DNA of 20,047 bases from a virus, in the IMG/VR virus record IMGVR_UViG_3300033146_005306, positions 1 to 20,047 of that record. One strand, written 5' to 3'. The position numbers were made by a program, and so were the translations under genes. The notes under the pieces are model-generated. The model was not told the origin of the DNA. It worked only from the letters and a program-made list of their open reading frames with translations, and ran no database searches. Position 1 is the stretch's first letter. Each line of letters begins with the position of its first letter. This document shows, one piece after another, positions 4,556 to 19,944 of this stretch.

Positions 4556-5664
4556 TAGAGGCTATCCCATGTTGATTCTGCTGCATCCCAGCACAGCGAA
4601 AGAGTATCACCGGAAGTTGCGAATGTATACGCGGCGGTAATCCCATCAATTGACGTTGAAACAATAACGGCGGAGAACCCAGCCGCAAAGACTCCCTTAA
4701 CGTCGAGAATCTGCCCATCGGCGGGGAATGGCGGCATGTTTAACGCAACATCATTCAAACGTGCGTCAATCTTTATCATTCTGTCGTAGTTAGTAGCAAT
4801 ATCATCGGCGGTTATCGTCCTTCGAGGGATAACGGTTGGGGTGTAGTGATTCGAGAGAGCAGACCACGAAACCCCGTTACTCTGTATAACTACAGCCGTG
4901 TTTCGTGAAGCGGTCCCCCAGGTGGACTTACCTTCGATCAATTCAGCCCCAGCCGGGGCAACCGTGACCGTGTTTTCGCTTGGGTCGATCTTCTTTACGC
5001 AAAGAACACGCTTCACGCTATCCACCGCGGGCGGCAGCGTTATCACAACAGGACCCGCTGACGCATCGACGAGGATCGTGTACTCATTCCCGTTAGAGAG
5101 AACGGCATAATCCGCCGTCTTCGTCGAGATCTGAAACTCTGGGGAAGTTTGCTCACCTTGGATCTCGACGATGTTCAAGCGCGTTCCGCTCGACTCGAAA
5201 TAGATCTTGTTCACAGACGAGGAAGTTGTGACACGCACCGCGCACTGAATGTCAGACGCGCCAACCCGGACCACGCCGAAGGCGTAACCCAGGGGGCCTC
5301 TGACAATCGAAGTCGGGAACGTCTCAGGGGTGCAATATGCCCGCGATATCAACTCAACACCGTTGGTGATATCGAAAAGATGAGCGCCCAAAGCCCCGCC
5401 CGACGCCGAAAAAGACACCCCCATAGCGAAATCAATAGCGTAGACGCGCCCAGCCTTTAGGGTGATCTCCCCTGTAGGTGAGACAACGATCCCCCCCGAC
5501 CCAGCCTTGACGGATGCAAAAGGCACGTTATCGCCTACCACGGGAGCGAGCAACTCCACAGGCGGGGTTATGTGCGCCCAGTCGGCTGAAGGGACAAGCG
5601 CAGGGCCACCACCGCCGCTACCACCCCCCGCTAAACCATCAAACCCGTAATAATAGATCGTCAT
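4555..5664 (-). CDS. Phage fibre/spike-like protein with repeated beta domains
   Basis: A 369-residue protein with ATG overlapping the previous stop (TAATG). After a Gly-rich hinge (residues 10-22) comes a jelly-roll-like segment (SPTGEITLKAGRVYAIDF, about 60-85). Near residues 190-270 is a beta unit typical of phage fibre proteins: YTILVDASAGPVVITLPP followed by KKIDPSENTVTV and a final GVSW. A diverged second copy covers about 280-369 (ITADD...MIKIDARLNDVALNMPPFP...). Such units stack along fibres and in head or tail appendages. The next gene (193 residues) may be its partner or tip. It sits between terminase and portal, unusual for a tail fibre, so a head fibre or capsid appendage is possible. 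Confidence 0.7.
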   Translation of the reverse strand: MTIYYYGFDGLAGGGSGGGGPALVPSADWAHITPPVELLAPVVGDNVPFASVKAGSGGIVVSPTGEITLKAGRVYAIDFAMGVSFSASGGALGAHLFDITNGVELISRAYCTPETFPTSIVRGPLGYAFGVVRVGASDIQCAVRVTTSSSVNKIYFESSGTRLNIVEIQGEQTSPEFQISTKTADYAVLSNGNEYTILVDASAGPVVITLPPAVDSVKRVLCVKKIDPSENTVTVAPAGAELIEGKSTWGTASRNTAVVIQSNGVSWSALSNHYTPTVIPRRTITADDIATNYDRMIKIDARLNDVALNMPPFPADGQILDVKGVFAAGFSAVIVSTSIDGITAAYTFATSGDTLSLCWDAAESTWDSL

Positions 5665-5981
5665 TAGCGGGCGTCCTTCCGATTGATCGCAACAACGGGG
5701 GAGGCTGCCCCTCCGAGCGCGGAGAAGGACACGCGAACCACCGAAAACGACACCGCGCGAGAGATTACAACCGAATCAGCTTCAAGCGCGCCAGCCTTGA
5801 CCTCCTTAAAACCCACAACGCCTGATACGCCGATCTCTACGGTATAGGAGCCCCCGTCGAGACCATCTGCGTTGACCTGAAGATCGAGGGATTCGTAGGC
5901 CGGGTTTTTTCCTCCGAGGTCTTGAGGAAAGAAGGAGTGCGGACCTGCGCCGCTCTTTGTGACAGTAGGATAAATCGCCAT
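5664..5981 (-). CDS. Small beta-rich structural protein
   Basis: About 105 residues from the ATG at 5981 (MAIYPTVTKSGAG), which has GAGG 8 nt upstream. A longer frame from a TTG at 6053 would overlap the terminase end and add Arg-rich shadow-like sequence, so I reject it. The C-terminal two thirds (GSYTVEIGVSGVVGF...FSVVRVSFSAL) look like one beta-sandwich of the kind found in phage decoration or fibre-base proteins. Its stop overlaps the fibre gene start by one base, so the three genes 5981 to 3974 form a tight unit. Function inferred from fold impression and position only. Confidence 0.65.
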   Translation of the reverse strand: MAIYPTVTKSGAGPHSFFPQDLGGKNPAYESLDLQVNADGLDGGSYTVEIGVSGVVGFKEVKAGALEADSVVISRAVSFSVVRVSFSALGGAASPVVAINRKDAR

Positions 5982-6036
5982 ATGGGCCGCCTCGGTCGTT
6001 GTTCTTGCCCAGTGTAGCGCGCGGGCCAAGCGCGGC

Positions 6037-7770
6037 CTAGAACTCGTCGTCAAAGGCCCCTATGCCGATTTCCCCATAGATCCCGTCCCAAGCGCCGTGG
6101 GCTGCGTTGCCCTCGACTATATCATCTTCATCTGAGGCGGCGCGGTAGGTGAACGCGCCCTTTCTGAGCACGGTCTCTGCGATCCATAGGGCCATAACGG
6201 TGTCGTCGTGAAGCTCGCGCCCAAGGGCCCAAAGCTCTTGGATCATCACCCCCACCCGCTGCTTGTCGCTGTCGAGCCTGGAAGGGAAAACCACCTTTCC
6301 CGCTTCAAAGAGGCCGCGGAGGGATGGAACACCATCCCAGTAATCCGCCTTCTTCTTGGTGGTGAGGTGCCCTTTGATCGGAAGATCTGTCGTCTTCTGT
6401 AGCCCGATGTAGTGCAGCTCTCCGAACGCGTTTCGCTCAACTGCAACGGCATGAACGCGTCCCAGCCCCCCGAACTTCTGAAACTCAGCGAGGACCGCAC
6501 CCCTGATCCCGCTAGGACTTAGACCTCTGATCCTCTTGAGCCCCAGGAGATAGCGATCCCCGTTAGCGTCGCGCCCCCATGTAATGCCGACCGTATAATC
6601 TGAATCTTGGGAAGCAGCTTTGGCGGGGTCAGTCACAAGAGAGAAGTCCCAGCCCTGAACAATCTCGAGCCCCTTTACCCCTTCTGGGATCGAGTCGAGC
6701 GAGAGGTGAGCGCCTCGGTCCTGCGCTCGCTGGAGCCACTCCATTTTGAATGGTGCGGAGCTGTCATCCTGAACTTGGTGTTGAAACTCGCGAGCGAAGA
6801 CTAGGGGCGTGATCTCGTCGCGTTCTTCGAGGAGGTACTCAATCGGTCGGTGCTGCGGCCAGAGAACCTTAGAAGGGCCGACCACATCAACCCCAGTGAC
6901 GATCTCCTTTTGAAGCTCAGGGTCATACTCTTTGATAATCGAGTGATCTTCCGGCCACTGGATGATCGCGGGGTCTTCAATCACCCGCCAAGATGCGCGG
7001 CGGGAGAGGTGCCCATACAGATCATCGTGGTGTTTGCGCGTGCCGATAATGATGAACGTGCCTCCTGGTGAGAGCATCGGCGTAACGGTCCCGTTGAACC
7101 ATCCGCGCGTCTTAGCCCGCCCCGCGATTGAGAGCGTGGTTTTATCCGATTCGAGGTCATCACAAAGGATGAGATCGAAGTGCCCGCCCGTGATCGCCCC
7201 ACCCGACCCCACAGCCTCAATCGAGGGGTCCACGCTTTTTCTGAGCCTCTGAACATAGATCGCGGTCTGAGTCCAGCGCGCTGCGTCTTCTTTGCCGCTG
7301 GCCTTGAACGGGAGACATCCGGCCTCGGGCTCGCTCGCCCAGTCCTCCACGATGCGTGGAGACTTCAAAAGAGAGGAGATCCTCTGCAAGCGTTTCTTGC
7401 CCACCTCGGCGGACTCTGAGATCCAAAGGATCCGAATATCTCGATCCTTGCAGAGCTCGCGCAGAGCGATAGTGATCGTTAACTCTGTTTTCCCGTGGTC
7501 ACGGGGGGCTAGGAGCAAGAGCCTGTTCTTGCGCTGTCCGTCCCGCCGCGCGTTGTCGATTGTCCGCGTCGCGATACTGAGCCACCTATCCCGGTGCGCA
7601 GCTCGCCACATTCCGCAGTAGTAGGTGTCGAAGAAGGTCGGGCTTGCCGCTGCAAGGCTGCGCCGCCCTGCGGGAGTTGACACCAACTCTGCCGCAAAAG
7701 CTGTCGCGTCCTCGGGTGAATGGTTTGCCTGTGGTGCGCTCAAGGTGTGGCCTCTCGTCTGTGGTAACAT
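6037..7770 (-). CDS. Terminase large subunit (packaging ATPase-nuclease)
   Basis: A 577-residue DNA-packaging motor. The ATPase domain has Walker A APRDHGKT at 88-95, Walker B FDLILCDD at about 198-205, and a coupling motif around GGTFIIIGTRKHHDD (236-250). The C-terminal RNase H-like nuclease shows the expected acidic residues: D375 in QGWDFSLVTD, E445 in AVERNAFG and D522/D523 in HDDTVMALW. It cuts concatemeric DNA and pumps it through the portal. The ATG at 7770 has no Shine-Dalgarno sequence, whereas a TTG at 7743 (nine codons in) has AGAGG 7 nt upstream, so the true start may be 7743. The call is firm. Confidence 0.92.
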   Translation of the reverse strand: MLPQTRGHTLSAPQANHSPEDATAFAAELVSTPAGRRSLAAASPTFFDTYYCGMWRAAHRDRWLSIATRTIDNARRDGQRKNRLLLLAPRDHGKTELTITIALRELCKDRDIRILWISESAEVGKKRLQRISSLLKSPRIVEDWASEPEAGCLPFKASGKEDAARWTQTAIYVQRLRKSVDPSIEAVGSGGAITGGHFDLILCDDLESDKTTLSIAGRAKTRGWFNGTVTPMLSPGGTFIIIGTRKHHDDLYGHLSRRASWRVIEDPAIIQWPEDHSIIKEYDPELQKEIVTGVDVVGPSKVLWPQHRPIEYLLEERDEITPLVFAREFQHQVQDDSSAPFKMEWLQRAQDRGAHLSLDSIPEGVKGLEIVQGWDFSLVTDPAKAASQDSDYTVGITWGRDANGDRYLLGLKRIRGLSPSGIRGAVLAEFQKFGGLGRVHAVAVERNAFGELHYIGLQKTTDLPIKGHLTTKKKADYWDGVPSLRGLFEAGKVVFPSRLDSDKQRVGVMIQELWALGRELHDDTVMALWIAETVLRKGAFTYRAASDEDDIVEGNAAHGAWDGIYGEIGIGAFDDEF

Positions 7771-9858: not shown

Positions 9859-10398
9859 TCAAACGCCCGAATCGCGAAACCCACTCACCCCGTAAATCAA
9901 CCGAGGGGCCTCATTTTCGACAGGATAGGGGCTCTCAACCACTACCGCGCCCGGCGCATCAGAGAGAGCACGCCACAGGAAGATCGCGAGGTGCGATGGG
10001 CACGCAGACCTGATCAGGATGCCAGGGAGAGCCCGCGCTGCTGCAAGGTAGAGGGCCCTTCCTATCCCCTGTCGCCTATACTCGGGGAGAACCCACGCTG
10101 CGCGGACCATGAAGAGACGAGGGCAGAGAGAGCGGCCCGTGTTATCCACAATCTCACGAGCTGAGACCCCCCCGAGCTTTGCACCGTTGCCGTGCTCACA
10201 GAGCCCCTCTCGCGCCTCTACATCCACGCCAACGCCTAGGGTTACGGTCCACAGAGGTTGGAGCCTACACGGCTCAAAATGGGCAACGGTGAGTTGGGGG
10301 CGCGGCAAACTTGGGCGTTTAATCGAGAAGGGGGAGGCTTCACCACAGGGGAGGGGGAAGGGTGCCGTTTCGAGGTAGAAGCTGGATATCTCCTGCAT
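9859..10398 (-). CDS. GNAT-family N-acetyltransferase
   Basis: A 179-residue protein from the ATG at 10398, which has AAGGGG 6 nt upstream; a longer frame to 10509 crosses a large inverted repeat and is unlikely. The GNAT acetyl-CoA motif A is clear near residues 97-122: MVRAAWVLPEYRRQGIGRALYL, with RRQGIG as the pyrophosphate-binding loop. The N-terminal 40 residues are Pro-rich. Phage GNAT proteins can acetylate host proteins, small molecules or modified DNA bases; the substrate cannot be read here. It is preceded by a 13-bp stem-loop that may regulate it. Confidence 0.7.
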   Translation of the reverse strand: MQEISSFYLETAPFPLPCGEASPFSIKRPSLPRPQLTVAHFEPCRLQPLWTVTLGVGVDVEAREGLCEHGNGAKLGGVSAREIVDNTGRSLCPRLFMVRAAWVLPEYRRQGIGRALYLAAARALPGILIRSACPSHLAIFLWRALSDAPGAVVVESPYPVENEAPRLIYGVSGFRDSGV

Positions 10399-12055: not shown

Positions 12056-12441
12056 CTGCGCTCACCTCGCGGCGGAGAAAATCGCGCTCCTAGGGGGGTT
12101 ATCTCACATTCTGCGGTGTTCTCAGTCACAACGCAGACTCGGCGGGTGATCTGCTTACCACCTCCAACTAAGGGGATCTCTCTGTAAACGTCGAAGGCAT
12201 AGACACCTGGGCCTCGGCGCTCGCGTCCTGAGATCAATGTGTCTGCGTTGGGGTTATGGGGCGGGCGATCAATGGCCTTGAGGATGAGGGCGCGTTGGGC
12301 GTCGGTGGGGGCGTCGAGGGCGATAAGGGCCGCTCCGCCAAGCTGGCCGAGCGCCACCATCAGCACAACTAAGGCGCTCAGGATGAAGATGAACGCGGTG
12401 AGCGTGCTGAGGCCCCTGAACCAATCAGAGAAGGCCCTCAT
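12052..12441 (-). CDS. Single-pass membrane protein, unknown
   Basis: A 129-residue protein. A hydrophobic segment of about 28 residues near the N-terminus (TAFIFILSALVVLMVALG and on to about residue 42) is a likely membrane anchor or uncleaved signal; the charged first ten residues suggest an N-in orientation. The rest is soluble, with two Cys (VCVVTENTAECEI) that could pair if exported. Both ends overlap neighbours by 4 bp, linking it to the coiled-coil and SspB-like genes. No family recognised. Confidence 0.65.
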   Translation of the reverse strand: MRAFSDWFRGLSTLTAFIFILSALVVLMVALGQLGGAALIALDAPTDAQRALILKAIDRPPHNPNADTLISGRERRGPGVYAFDVYREIPLVGGGKQITRRVCVVTENTAECEITPLGARFSPPRGERR

Positions 12442-13709
12442 GTGGTGCTCTCATCGGTGGGGGGCGCGGTCTCGGCGGCGGGGACGGGGGCCTCGGAGCC
12501 CTCAACGGGGCGGGCGTCCTCTTGGTGGAGGCCAAGATCCAGGGTGGGCGCGGGGGCGCCCGTGACCTCCGCGAGCCCGATATCCTCGACAGGGCCAGAG
12601 AAGGACGCCTCGATCACGAGATCCTCGCGGCCCGCGCTCGCCATGAGGTCTACATATTGCTCGCGGTGCTCAGGGCTAAGGGCGCTCACCTGGATCGCGA
12701 TGGCTTGCCGAGCTGCTTCAGCTTTGGCGGAGAACTGATCGATCTCCAGCGTAGATGCGGCAAGGGCCTCTAGGTCGGAGGAGGGTTCAACATGGAAGGC
12801 CCCCGTGTTGAGCGTCAAGAGCCGATCAAAGCGGCCTGAGAAGCCAGAGAAGAACACCGTGATCTTCCGATTCAGCTTCTCATTGAGCTTCTGCGCGGCC
12901 TCTGGGTCGGTCTTGCTGTCGTTGATACGTGCAAGGGCCTTGATGATCGCGCGGACCTCGCGAGACGCCCAACAGATCAGCGCGCTACGGTGGATCTCCC
13001 CGCGCAGCTTGGCCTTGAGCCCCGCGAGCCCGGCCTTGAGCCCCAACACCTCACGATTAAGGGCCGCGTTCTCCATTTGAAGGGGGAGCACCTCAGCTTT
13101 TAGCTCGGCGTTCTCCGCGCTCATGCGGCTCATTGACTCTGCGGCGAGTTGCCCGCGGAGCTCAAAGGACTCGGCGACCGCGGCGGTGATCTGCTCAAGG
13201 TCGGGGAGGAGATCGAGATCCTCAACAGTGGGGGCCGGTGGGGCGTCCTTCAAATCGGAGGGCTTGAGGGTGCGGAGGTGCGCTGCGTGGGCGTCTTGGG
13301 CGGCCTTGAGGATCACCCCCTCGACAGCGGAGAGGCGGGCCTTAATGGCGTCGCGCTCAGCGAGGGCTTCGGCTACCTGCTCAGAGGGGGCGGCTTCAAG
13401 CTCGGAGATGCGCGCTTCAAGCTGTGATATCTCGTATTTGAGCACATGCGACTCGTTAAGGAGTCGCTCCGCCGCGTGAAAAGAGGCGCGCTCAGAGTCC
13501 GTGATGCGCGATAAGTCCGCCGCCTGCTTTGAGTTGATCCCCTCCAGCATAAAGAGCTTGTCATTCACCGCGGAGAGGGCCAGGCGCGCCGCGTCGAGTT
13601 GCGCGAGGGCCTCGGCGTGGGGGACATTCCTCACCTTGAGCAAGCGGGTCTTGAGCGCGTGATTTTGGCGTTTGAGGTCGCGGACGATCTGCGGGGTCTT
13701 GGCGTGCAT
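12438..13709 (-). CDS. Long coiled-coil protein, unknown
   Basis: A 423-residue protein, ATG start with GAGAGG 9 nt upstream. Residues 5-135 and 180-235 are heptad-rich coiled coil (for example LKYEISQLEARISELEAA and LPLQMENAALNREVLGLK). A middle block (about 238-310) contains the only aromatic-rich part (VFFSGFSGRFDRLL), and the C-terminal 50 residues are acidic and Pro-rich. It resembles structural or scaffolding coiled coils but no named family. It is first in a three-gene overlapping operon and follows a good promoter. The position is far from the tail genes, so a tape-measure role is unlikely. Confidence 0.65.
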   Translation of the reverse strand: MHAKTPQIVRDLKRQNHALKTRLLKVRNVPHAEALAQLDAARLALSAVNDKLFMLEGINSKQAADLSRITDSERASFHAAERLLNESHVLKYEISQLEARISELEAAPSEQVAEALAERDAIKARLSAVEGVILKAAQDAHAAHLRTLKPSDLKDAPPAPTVEDLDLLPDLEQITAAVAESFELRGQLAAESMSRMSAENAELKAEVLPLQMENAALNREVLGLKAGLAGLKAKLRGEIHRSALICWASREVRAIIKALARINDSKTDPEAAQKLNEKLNRKITVFFSGFSGRFDRLLTLNTGAFHVEPSSDLEALAASTLEIDQFSAKAEAARQAIAIQVSALSPEHREQYVDLMASAGREDLVIEASFSGPVEDIGLAEVTGAPAPTLDLGLHQEDARPVEGSEAPVPAAETAPPTDESTT

Positions 13710-15475: not shown

Positions 15476-16513
15476 TTATGCGTCGAGGTTCGAAACGGCG
15501 CCCGATTTCGAGCAGTACGCAAGCTCAACCACGCCTCGCGGGGTCGCTCTGCTCTTTGCGCAGATCATCTCAAGGACTCCCCGGCGCGGCGAGTCGTCTT
15601 GATAGACCTCCTCACGGTGCAGGAGGAAGATGCGTGAGGAGTGCTGCGCTATGGCGTCGCGCTCTCGGAGATCCTCAAGCCTGGGGCGCTTGTCGGGGCG
15701 CTCGTCGATAGGAGCTAAGAGGCCCTCAGAGTAGCCACGCGGAATCGTAGTCGTCACAAGGAGAGGCACCGAAAACTCACCTGCGACACCTAGAAGCCTC
15801 CTGATCGTCTCATCAAACTCAACCTCGCGAGACTCACGGCGAGGGCCACTGAGGAGCTCCGCGCGGTCGATCACAACAAGCCCGACAGGCGGGGCGTCGC
15901 TCTGCGCGACGATTTGAACCTCGTCGCGCACATCGTCAACGCTCATTGCACCATCGAAGATATGCAGGGGGGCCCGGTCTAACTCCCCGAGCGCCTTCAC
16001 GACGAAGCCCAGGGCGGCCCCGTCGATGGCGGCAGCATCGCCCGTCTCTGCGAAGCGGAGGACATCACCCCGATCAGCTTTTGCGCGACCTGAGATCATA
16101 AGGGACCGAACCTCGGTTTTCGTGCTTTCAGTCGAGAAGTAGAGGACGGAAAACCCATCGAGTGCGACGTTCACTGCGTCCGCGCAGGCTTTTGATGTCT
16201 TCCCCATTCCGGGGCGGCCCGCGAGCGCGGTCAACGTGCCGGGTCGATACATCCCGAAATCACGATCTATCGCGGCGAAGCCGGAGTTGACACGCGCCAC
16301 GGGGGAGGGGCGTCCGGGCGCGATGGTGGACACTGGGCTCATGTTCACAGCGCCGCCCGTCATCTGTGAGATTTTCTGAGCTGTGCTCTCGGAAGGGGAG
16401 TACGCCACGTTGGGCGCACAAAGCCGATCAATTGTGTTTTTTGAGACCCCGACCATTAGGGCGAAGTGCTCTCGGCGGATGGCGTTTTGGCGCAAGTAGC
16501 TTGAGAGTTTCAT
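15476..16513 (-). CDS. HTH domain fused to a DnaB-type helicase C-terminal ATPase domain
   Basis: A 345-residue protein from ATG 16513 (MKLSSYLRQNAIRR), a typical XRE-type N-terminus. ATG 16537 and TTG 16549 are alternative starts; none has a well-spaced ribosome site. Residues 1-45 form an XRE-like helix-turn-helix (HFALMVGVSKNTIDRL). Residues 80-345 follow the DnaB/RecA-fold domain: FAAIDRDFGMYRPGTLTALA, Walker A GRPGMGKT (99-106), Walker B GLVVIDRAELL (Asp near 216), then KRPRLEDLRERDAIAQ and IFLLHREEVYQDD, where DnaB has D-L-R-SGAIEQ and its arginine finger, and a final CAKSRATPRGVVEL. The DnaB N-terminal domain is missing, replaced by the HTH. It diverges from the initiator gene across operator-like repeats. 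It may be the phage helicase, a regulator, or both. Confidence 0.8.
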   Translation of the reverse strand: MKLSSYLRQNAIRREHFALMVGVSKNTIDRLCAPNVAYSPSESTAQKISQMTGGAVNMSPVSTIAPGRPSPVARVNSGFAAIDRDFGMYRPGTLTALAGRPGMGKTSKACADAVNVALDGFSVLYFSTESTKTEVRSLMISGRAKADRGDVLRFAETGDAAAIDGAALGFVVKALGELDRAPLHIFDGAMSVDDVRDEVQIVAQSDAPPVGLVVIDRAELLSGPRRESREVEFDETIRRLLGVAGEFSVPLLVTTTIPRGYSEGLLAPIDERPDKRPRLEDLRERDAIAQHSSRIFLLHREEVYQDDSPRRGVLEMICAKSRATPRGVVELAYCSKSGAVSNLDA

Positions 16514-16545
16514 GAAAAAGACTTTAGCGAGGCTCATCCTTTCGT

Positions 16546-16585
16546 GCAATAGTTGATTGCTCCTTTTATTGGACTCCGAGCAATC
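16546..16585. promoter_or_regulatory. Operator-like GCAAT half-sites in the divergent promoter region
   Basis: GCAAT occurs at 16546-16550 and 16580-16584 and inverted (ATTGC) at 16556-16560. GATTGCTC (16555-16562) with GAGCAATC (16578-16585) is a perfect 8-bp inverted repeat, and GCAAT-agttg-ATTGC a second, overlapping one. The sites lie at the 5' end of the HTH-helicase gene and beside a weak plus-strand promoter candidate (TTGGAC, 18 bp, GATACA). They suit repression by an HTH protein; binding is inferred. Confidence 0.5.
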
Positions 16586-16629
16586 TTTCTGCGATACACA
16601 CGGTTAAGCGCAAAACAGGAGGAAAAGCC

Positions 16630-18087
16630 ATGGCAAACACCGGGGTTGAGCAAAAGGGCCGATTCGGGCGCCTCATGGGGGCCACCTTCCGGTCCAAGCT
16701 AGGGCGCCGAGACAAGATGGTCTTGATGGCGATTATCACGCTGGCCGGAGATGACGGCGTGTGCCGCTACGGGAAAAAAGCAATCTCCGATCTGACTGAG
16801 TACGACCGCAAAACCATAGGGCGTTCTCTTGCGGTCCTGAGACGCCTCGGGTTGATCGATGAGGTCAAGGGGGCGCAGTCCTGGTTCCCCTCGTCTAGAG
16901 TGTTAAAGGTCGCCGAAATTGAGGCGTTGAGAGCCCGAGACGTTGAGGGATACGCGGAGATCGTCGAGGAGCAGGCGGCTGCCATAAACCCAAAGCGTAA
17001 GCGCCTCACCAAAGCCGAACGTAGCGAAAGAGCCAAAGCCCGCGCGGCGGCGCGGGCAACCAAAAATAAGGCTGAGAGGGCCCTAGGTGGGGACACAGTG
17101 TCCCTAGGTGGGGACACAGTGTCCCTAGGTGGGGACACAGTGTCCCTAGGTGGGGACACAGTGTCCCTAGGTGGGGACACAGTGTCCCTACCCTGGGGAC
17201 ACAGTGTCCCTACCCTGGGTGCCGAAAACCCTAGTGCCCCTACGCACACACGCGCGCGCTCTTTTTCTGACTCTGTATCTGACTCTGTATCTGACTCTGT
17301 ATCTGACTCTGTATCTGACGAAGGCGGGGCGGCGGGCGGCTTGGGCCAGGAAGCTCTAGAGGGGCTTGTTTTCTGGGCTAAGACGCTCAAGGTGAGGAAG
17401 TCAGACCAGACCAGAAGCGCGAACCCGAGCACGACAAAGGGAGATGTCCGCCTTAGTGCTCTGCGCTGGTTTCTAGAAAACACCCCCGACCGTAGCCTCT
17501 TAAACGTGAAGCTCGGCTGCCTGGGTTGCAAAGTGAAGATCGCCCGACAGCGCGCGGACAACTTCAACCCAGGGGCGACCTATGACGAGCTCACCCGCAT
17601 TGTCGCCGACCGGGACAGCCTTGATATGCACTCGAAGCACCTACTCACCCCGTCGTCAGTAATCCCGACGCCGGGAGAACTGGAACTTGAGGATTTGGCC
17701 TCAACGCCCGAGGGCTTGGACACGTTGAGGGCTCACGCCGAGGAGTTGGCAACCCGCGCTCAGACTCGTGAGCCATATCGCCCGGCCCGCACACGAAGCC
17801 AAGGGGGAGGTCGCCAGAGCAACCGAACCGGGATCAGGGCGCAATTCACCGACGAGCAGCGACGAGGGTTCCTGTCGCTGGTCGCGAACGGATCAAAGCC
17901 TCTCGACGGAGAGATCACCGCACGCGAGGCCGCTGACCTCGGGGTTTCACGCCAAGAGATGTTGAGAGCCTATGAAGGCGGGGCAGATGCGCGGGCGCGC
18001 GTGCTGGAGGCTCGCGCGAAAACCGAGGCCGACTTAGAAGCCGAGGCCGATGAGATTTGGGGCTCTGCCGCTAAAGCCTGGCGATAA
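16630..18087 (+). CDS. Phage replication initiator (lambda O-like role) with internal origin
   Basis: A 485-residue protein with a strong AGGAGG site 7 nt before its ATG. Residues 20-90 form a winged helix of the kind in phage replication proteins (RRDKMVLMAIITLA...GKKAISDLTEYDRKTIGRSLAVLRRLGLIDEV). A basic linker follows (about 118-150), then a repeat region: five LGGDTVS units (about 152-186) and a Ser-Asp-Ser-Val repeat (about 215-232). These are the translations of DNA repeats that look like an origin. The rest (240-485) has a Cys pair (GCLGC) and helical, charged sequence and probably contacts the helicase or loader. The next gene is a DnaC-like loader, the order seen in lambda (O then P). 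Function is inferred from this architecture. Confidence 0.75.
   Translation: MANTGVEQKGRFGRLMGATFRSKLGRRDKMVLMAIITLAGDDGVCRYGKKAISDLTEYDRKTIGRSLAVLRRLGLIDEVKGAQSWFPSSRVLKVAEIEALRARDVEGYAEIVEEQAAAINPKRKRLTKAERSERAKARAAARATKNKAERALGGDTVSLGGDTVSLGGDTVSLGGDTVSLGGDTVSLPWGHSVPTLGAENPSAPTHTRARSFSDSVSDSVSDSVSDSVSDEGGAAGGLGQEALEGLVFWAKTLKVRKSDQTRSANPSTTKGDVRLSALRWFLENTPDRSLLNVKLGCLGCKVKIARQRADNFNPGATYDELTRIVADRDSLDMHSKHLLTPSSVIPTPGELELEDLASTPEGLDTLRAHAEELATRAQTREPYRPARTRSQGGGRQSNRTGIRAQFTDEQRRGFLSLVANGSKPLDGEITAREAADLGVSRQEMLRAYEGGADARARVLEARAKTEADLEAEADEIWGSAAKAWR
17081..17210 (+). repeat. Iteron array, putative replication origin
   Basis: Five exact 21-bp tandem units (17081-17185) and a sixth 22-bp variant (17186-17207). 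Each carries the core GGGGACACAGTGTCCC, palindromic around a central A (cores at 17089, 17110, 17131, 17152, 17173 and 17195). The 21-bp period keeps the initiator reading frame. Iterons inside the initiator gene match the layout of lambda ori within O. Probable binding sites of the protein encoded around them. Confidence 0.75.
17266..17319 (+). repeat. 12-bp tandem repeats, putative origin unwinding element
   Basis: TCTGACTCTGTA is repeated four times exactly (17266-17313) plus a half unit. It is locally lower in G+C than its surroundings and starts 56 bp after the last iteron core. Repeats beside iterons often mark the DNA-unwinding region of an origin. The 12-bp period encodes SDSV units and keeps the frame. 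Confidence 0.6.
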
Positions 18088-19434: not shown

Positions 19435-19944
19435 ATGACCAAAGAACAGAAAGGCCACCTGCTCCTGAAGATCGCCCTGAGCAGGCTCAACCCTCATCAA
19501 AAGGCCGTGCTCTCCGCCCTCGTGGGGAAACACCCCCAGACCGTTACAGCGCCAAAGATCTGTAAGATCACGCAGACCACGCGCCCGACGGTCCTTAAGG
19601 CGAGCGACGTGCTCTCAGGATATGGGCTCTTGATCGTAAAGAGGGAGACCCGGAATTACACAAGCCGCGAGTTCGTGATCCCGCGGATTCTCCAGCTCGG
19701 CGACGCACTCAAGGGAGAGCCTCTCTTTGTTGAGCTTGAAGATGAGCCGGAGGGTGAGAACAACCCCTTCTCAGAGAAGCTCAGGGTGGAGAACGTGGGA
19801 GCCTTTGGGGCGGGCGACTGCAAAGGGGTAGGTGGTCCTCTCGCTGAGGCTGTCCGCTATGCCCACTCTGTTGCTGAGGTGATCGTGCGGAGGGCCTTAG
19901 AGGAGCAGGCTGAGGCTATGAAGGGGGCAAGCGATGAAGGTTAA
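19435..19944 (+). CDS. Winged-helix DNA-binding protein, probable regulator
   Basis: A 169-residue protein with GAAGGAGG about 9 nt before its ATG. Residues 15-75 form a MarR-like winged helix (LNPHQKAVLSALVGKHPQTVTAPKICKITQTTRPTVLKASDVLSGYGLLIVKRE): initial helix, HTH, then the wing (RNYTSREFVI). The C-terminal half is acidic and helical (EAVRYAHSVAEVIVRRALEE). It has its own promoter and leader motif, so it is expressed apart from the loader. It may control phage transcription or assist replication; which genes it acts on is unknown. Confidence 0.65.
   Translation: MTKEQKGHLLLKIALSRLNPHQKAVLSALVGKHPQTVTAPKICKITQTTRPTVLKASDVLSGYGLLIVKRETRNYTSREFVIPRILQLGDALKGEPLFVELEDEPEGENNPFSEKLRVENVGAFGAGDCKGVGGPLAEAVRYAHSVAEVIVRRALEEQAEAMKGASDEG

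Follow-up and report, generated by a model that had tools for sequence, protein, structure and literature searches.

Does the repeated DNA in the middle of a putative phage initiator gene serve as the origin at which that initiator acts? The window, which comprises all 20,047 nucleotides of the IMG/VR virus record IMGVR_UViG_3300033146_005306, contains such a gene, and the initial annotation had placed inside it an origin made of six iteron cores followed by 12-bp repeats. Both sets of repeats do lie within this ORF, the iterons as exact copies and both as arrays detected by Tandem Repeats Finder (Table 1). From sequence comparisons, we consider it very probable that the locus is a lambda-type theta origin located within its own initiator gene. 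The annotated arrangement, an origin inside a winged-helix initiator gene with a DnaC-like loader gene next to it, is well supported by comparative data, as the same layout occurs elsewhere.

Table 1. Features of the putative in-gene origin and its neighbours, with positions numbered along the window.
Feature	Position	Strand	Basis or remark
DnaB-like gene (divergent; helicase C-terminal domain)	15476..16549	-	DnaB_C 8.8e-34; phrog_19 6e-40
Initiator gene, 485 aa	16630..18087	+	ORF; weak family matches
Putative N-terminal winged helix, about aa 26-76	16705-16857	+	Weak HTH_36 match; followed by repeat-coding linker and C-terminal domain
Iteron 1, GGGACACAGTGTCCC	17090..17104	+	Exact match
Iteron 2	17111..17125	+	Exact match
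Iteron 3	17132..17146	+	Exact match
Iteron 4	17153..17167	+	Exact match
Iteron 5	17174..17188	+	Exact match
Iteron 6, read as WGHSVP	17196..17210	+	Exact match, shifted one base
Proposed DNA unwinding element, TCTGACTCTGTA repeats	17259..17319	+	Lowest stability within the gene
DnaC-like helicase loader, 374 aa	18123..19247	+	phrog_50 1.4e-26; IstB_IS21 1.8e-6

The iteron is present in six exact copies and nowhere else in the 20,047-base record. With up to three mismatches allowed, 12 matches were found, which are the same six sites read on both strands, against 0.4 expected from window shuffles. Tandem Repeats Finder delimited the array to 17081–17212, with a period of 21, 6.2 copies and 97% match. 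The six iterons fall at residues 154–194 of the initiator, C-terminal to the putative winged helix and approximately 450 bp into the gene. The perfect palindrome around one base that had been annotated is correct for 15 bp (GGGACAC-A-GTGTCCC) but not for an additional 5′ G, which has no mirror partner. Similarly, a tandem spacing of 21 bp describes the first four start-to-start intervals but not the last, which is 22 bp. Iterons 1–5 are identical, spacer included, and are translated as LGGDTVS, as had been reported, whereas iteron 6 is one base off the 21-bp register and retains the DNA palindrome in another frame, where it reads PWGHSVP (GGDTVS becoming WGHSVP). The second array, consisting of TCTGACTCTGTA repeats (17266–17319; period 12, 4.5 copies and 100% match in Tandem Repeats Finder), is translated into the expected SDSV units.

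A search of public genomes for GGGACA-N3-TGTCCC occurring twice within 30 bp yielded 55 loci. In nine of these (L012, L013, L024, L031, L032, L036, L038, L047 and L062), both copies fell within a gene scoring as a replication initiator of phage or plasmid type; these genes are from Brevibacterium, Ligilactobacillus, Ectobacillus, Thermotalea, Eubacterium, an uncultured Clostridiales and an alphaproteobacterium. The remaining genome loci were mostly outside initiator genes, and many were dispersed repeats. Among viral contigs, the pair fell within winged-helix genes at 10 of 21 loci, two of which (L066 and L072) are copies. When two other palindromes with this layout were used as controls, they gave four and two loci, five of the six being in genes of winged-helix type (L087 as judged by eye alone). 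Since most control loci are likewise in such genes, palindromes of the 6-N3-6 form that recur in mid-gene are, in the loci compared, a general mark of these initiators, and the GGGACA core is frequent among them but not special. ORFs fetched by HTH_36 alone contained recurrent palindromes in 8 of 61 cases, with several different cores, and none appeared in 50 codon shuffles. Winged-helix initiator genes with palindromic iterons at their centre recur in the surveyed phages and bacterial replicons, which belong to several phyla.

A GGGACA core unique to initiators was rejected, considering the control palindromes and the many genomic matches that are dispersed repeats. In nine whole genomes, the core was found only in the initiator gene, with one exception, and few copies were expected by chance anyway. 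Palindrome matches in other ORFs of the HTH_36 loci were overlapping frames of the same DNA, L117 excepted. By eye, the residues of the recognition helix showed no clear correspondence with the iteron core, similar helices (L080 and L084) being associated with different cores. Sites in other genetic contexts were also recorded. Two related viral contigs (L001:7540–7630 and L002:10912–11000) carry three ATGGGACACNGTGTCCCAT or close-variant palindromes at the end and just 3′ of parA-parB, a candidate partition site. One Bartonella record (L016) has two GGGACA-N3-TGTCCC sites (5586–5636) within a ParB_N-domain gene (5165–6193), and a second record from this genus (L028) has a matching pair. At L015, a gene with a product that is BlaI/MecI-like by eye is overlapped at its start by the same palindrome pair (7533–7571), which may be its operator. 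The palindromes of L076 (12174–12209) are located approximately 140 bp upstream of a winged-helix gene (12350–12809), not within it.

The initial annotation had also proposed that both repeat periods are multiples of three, so that the copy number could change without breaking the frame. This is true of the five 21-bp units and of the 12-bp units, but it fails for the sixth copy, with its 22-bp step, and for the 20 of 29 related genes in which copies occur in more than one reading frame. Lambda iterons also occupy several frames (phases 0, 2, 2 and 1), and multiples of three were rejected as a design rule. Iteron intervals in the 29 genes cluster near 22, 33 and 44 bp, and those beyond 25 bp show a modest phasing that nonetheless exceeds a uniform null (P = 0.009). 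This clustering suggests that what counts is helical phase and not codon phase, and iteron 6, in which the palindrome is kept while the reading changes, favours selection acting on the DNA and its helical phase. The in-frame periods of 21 and 12 bp are compatible with easy changes in copy number, without being a rule of the class. Slippage could have produced a low-complexity protein linker whose repeats have no function at the DNA level, given that the identity of five units, spacer included, fits a recent expansion and that both arrays are mostly in frame. That the repeats are nothing more than such a linker is extremely unlikely, however, as the sixth copy retains the palindrome despite its changed frame and residues, the relatives keep theirs in several frames and the codon shuffles yielded no recurrent palindromes.

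DNA stability was scanned with nearest-neighbour values, taking the least stable 40 bp of each ORF, and a minimum was considered just 3′ of an array when it started between −15 and +100 bp from the array 3′ end. In the initiator gene of the window, the stability minimum coincides with the 12-bp repeats whether 48 or 40 bp are taken, and in the 40-bp scan it lies 65 bp beyond the end of the iteron array. Since the least stable segment 3′ of the iterons is this repeat block, the 12-bp repeats look like an unwinding element, a role that the initial annotation had not given them. The minimum was located just 3′ of the iteron array in 23 of 28 genes, against 3.3 expected (P about 1e-17), and at the mirror position 5′ of the array in three. 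The 28 genes are partly related (L036 and L062 are 76% identical, L070 and L081 55%, and L100, L108 and L113 are related to each other), and the result is independent of these relationships. Using the same computation, the least stable 40 bp of lambda O start 4 bp past iteron 4, and the minimum of P22 gene 18 is inside its annotated origin. The minimum is no deeper in HTH_36 genes with iterons than in those without; its position alone differs.

The unstable segment also bears on a regulatory reading, in which the palindromes serve as intragenic operators, the winged-helix protein acting there as an autorepressor, and replication starts elsewhere. Repressors typically bind palindromic sites in tandem, and in one genome a BlaI-like gene has the same core upstream. 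Nevertheless, operators placed so far inside a gene are very improbable here, with no sigma-70-like promoter detected in 16400–17500 and with an unstable segment recurring 3′ of the array, which would be unexpected for an operator. No DnaA box was found near the iteron array, the sole TTATCCACA in the record being at 10142. The cumulative GC-skew minimum is at approximately 7–8 kb and not at 17 kb, in a record that is a 20-kb linear fragment for which skew is uninformative.

Family matches of the initiator protein were weak: HTH_36 (E=4.8e-4, 20.3 bits, under the Pfam cut-off of 25), phrog_391 'replication initiation O-like' (5e-4) and phrog_4617 'replication initiation protein' (4.1e-4). Neither Phage_rep_O (PF04492) nor an RP-C domain was detected in it, and RepA_N (PF06970) gave no Pfam match at E≤0.001. 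The AlphaFold model of residues 1–150 had a pLDDT of 77, with 87–97 for residues 21–80 (the helix-turn-helix core) and a wing that was not confident; the C-terminal domain gave no usable structure model. No structural match of the 1–150 model was obtained at E≤0.001, and the weak ones were all of winged-helix type, including TubR (the best), MarR and phage helix-turn-helix proteins, among which a putative replication protein O ranked 17th. Close relatives of the protein were not found in phages, plasmids or viral contigs. The weak TubR match, together with the presence of the same core beside a parA-parB pair in two viral contigs and within a ParB_N gene in Bartonella, is consistent with a centromere-like partition site bound by a ParB- or TubR-like protein and lacking an origin role. 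We regard this function as highly unlikely for an array that has a helicase loader gene and an unstable segment as neighbours and is enclosed in an O-like initiator gene, in a window where no partition genes (ParA, ParB or TubZ) were recognised, particularly as related genes with the same layout score as replication initiators.

The neighbouring loader gene had distant tblastn matches that are phage DnaC genes, and no close relatives in viral contigs. Its Walker A motif is GDTGTAKS, with A replacing G ahead of the lysine. One distant relative was found for the DnaB-like gene, in which a Cro/XRE-type helix-turn-helix apparently precedes DnaB_C in place of the DnaB N-terminal domain. Past the loader, an ORF of 169 aa (19435–19944) had no Pfam or PHROG match and resembles another helix-turn-helix protein. 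Two terminase relatives were obtained at 57%, both of them short fragments.

If the locus is a lambda-type origin, dimers of the encoded winged-helix protein would bind the six palindromic iterons, which, at about two turns from each other and on one helix face, could support an O-some-like complex. Strain from this complex would melt the adjoining weak segment, and the DnaC-like loader, encoded by the next gene, would then bring a DnaB-type helicase to the opened strand. The DNA encoding the linker would therefore double as the origin.

The origins of lambda and Stx phages are located in the middle of the O gene, where O binds iterons whose number is variable, with four in lambda and six in Stx phages (PMC7466680). 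The window shares with lambda O/ori-lambda, P22 gene 18 and the Stx phages the order of iterons and then an unstable segment in mid-initiator gene, the helicase-loading or helicase gene next to it and the presence of copies in several reading frames. It differs from lambda in its unrelated iteron sequence, in iterons that are more perfectly palindromic and nearly identical, in a loader that is DnaC-like and not a lambda P homologue and in an unwinding segment of 12-bp repeats, and there is no close sequence kinship. In the plasmid pSK41, Rep boxes are located centrally within rep, the origin DNA encodes a linker and the DNA-binding domain is N-terminal (PMC5703833). The window has putative counterparts of these three features of RepA_N plasmids but, in contrast, belongs to a phage and lacks a detectable PF06970, while the pSK41 plan, as described, includes no distinct loader gene. 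Replication of the repABC plasmid p42d is lost upon synonymous changes within the A+T-rich portion of repC (PMC3155836). RepC resembles the plan proposed for the window in having the origin in the initiator gene, in its case near the A+T-rich stretch, but repC has no iterons and shares its operon with partition genes. The HTH_36/DnaD-like initiators of Brevibacterium, Ligilactobacillus, Clostridiales, Alphaproteobacteria and viral contigs share with the window the mid-gene GGGACA-N3-TGTCCC and the unstable segment 3′ of it, whereas their identity to the N-terminus of the window protein is 13–26%, their C-terminal domains differ and they contain 2–5 copies. Judging from these comparisons, the window is most likely a clean further example of the lambda O/pSK41 RepA_N plan and not a new design.

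The window would thus contain a phage origin within a gene, with six perfectly palindromic iterons and an unwinding segment built from repeats. Origins in phages and plasmids not yet characterised could be located through simple sequence rules, namely recurrent palindromes in mid-gene, the least stable segment just 3′ and spacing set by helical turns and not by codons. A core common to several phyla also makes cross-recognition between replicons testable. It is rather doubtful that phages and other replicons of Actinobacteria, Firmicutes and Proteobacteria share GGGACA-N3-TGTCCC as an iteron 'dialect' that moves between them together with HTH_36-type winged helices; if they do, unrelated replicons using it would compete for each other's initiators, resulting in cross-incompatibility or phage-plasmid interference. 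As a separate observation, the DnaD gene of Bacillus phage Pookie (L154:1420–2199), which adjoins a DnaC gene, contains in-gene AACAAGCAACTA repeats directly before its least stable segment.
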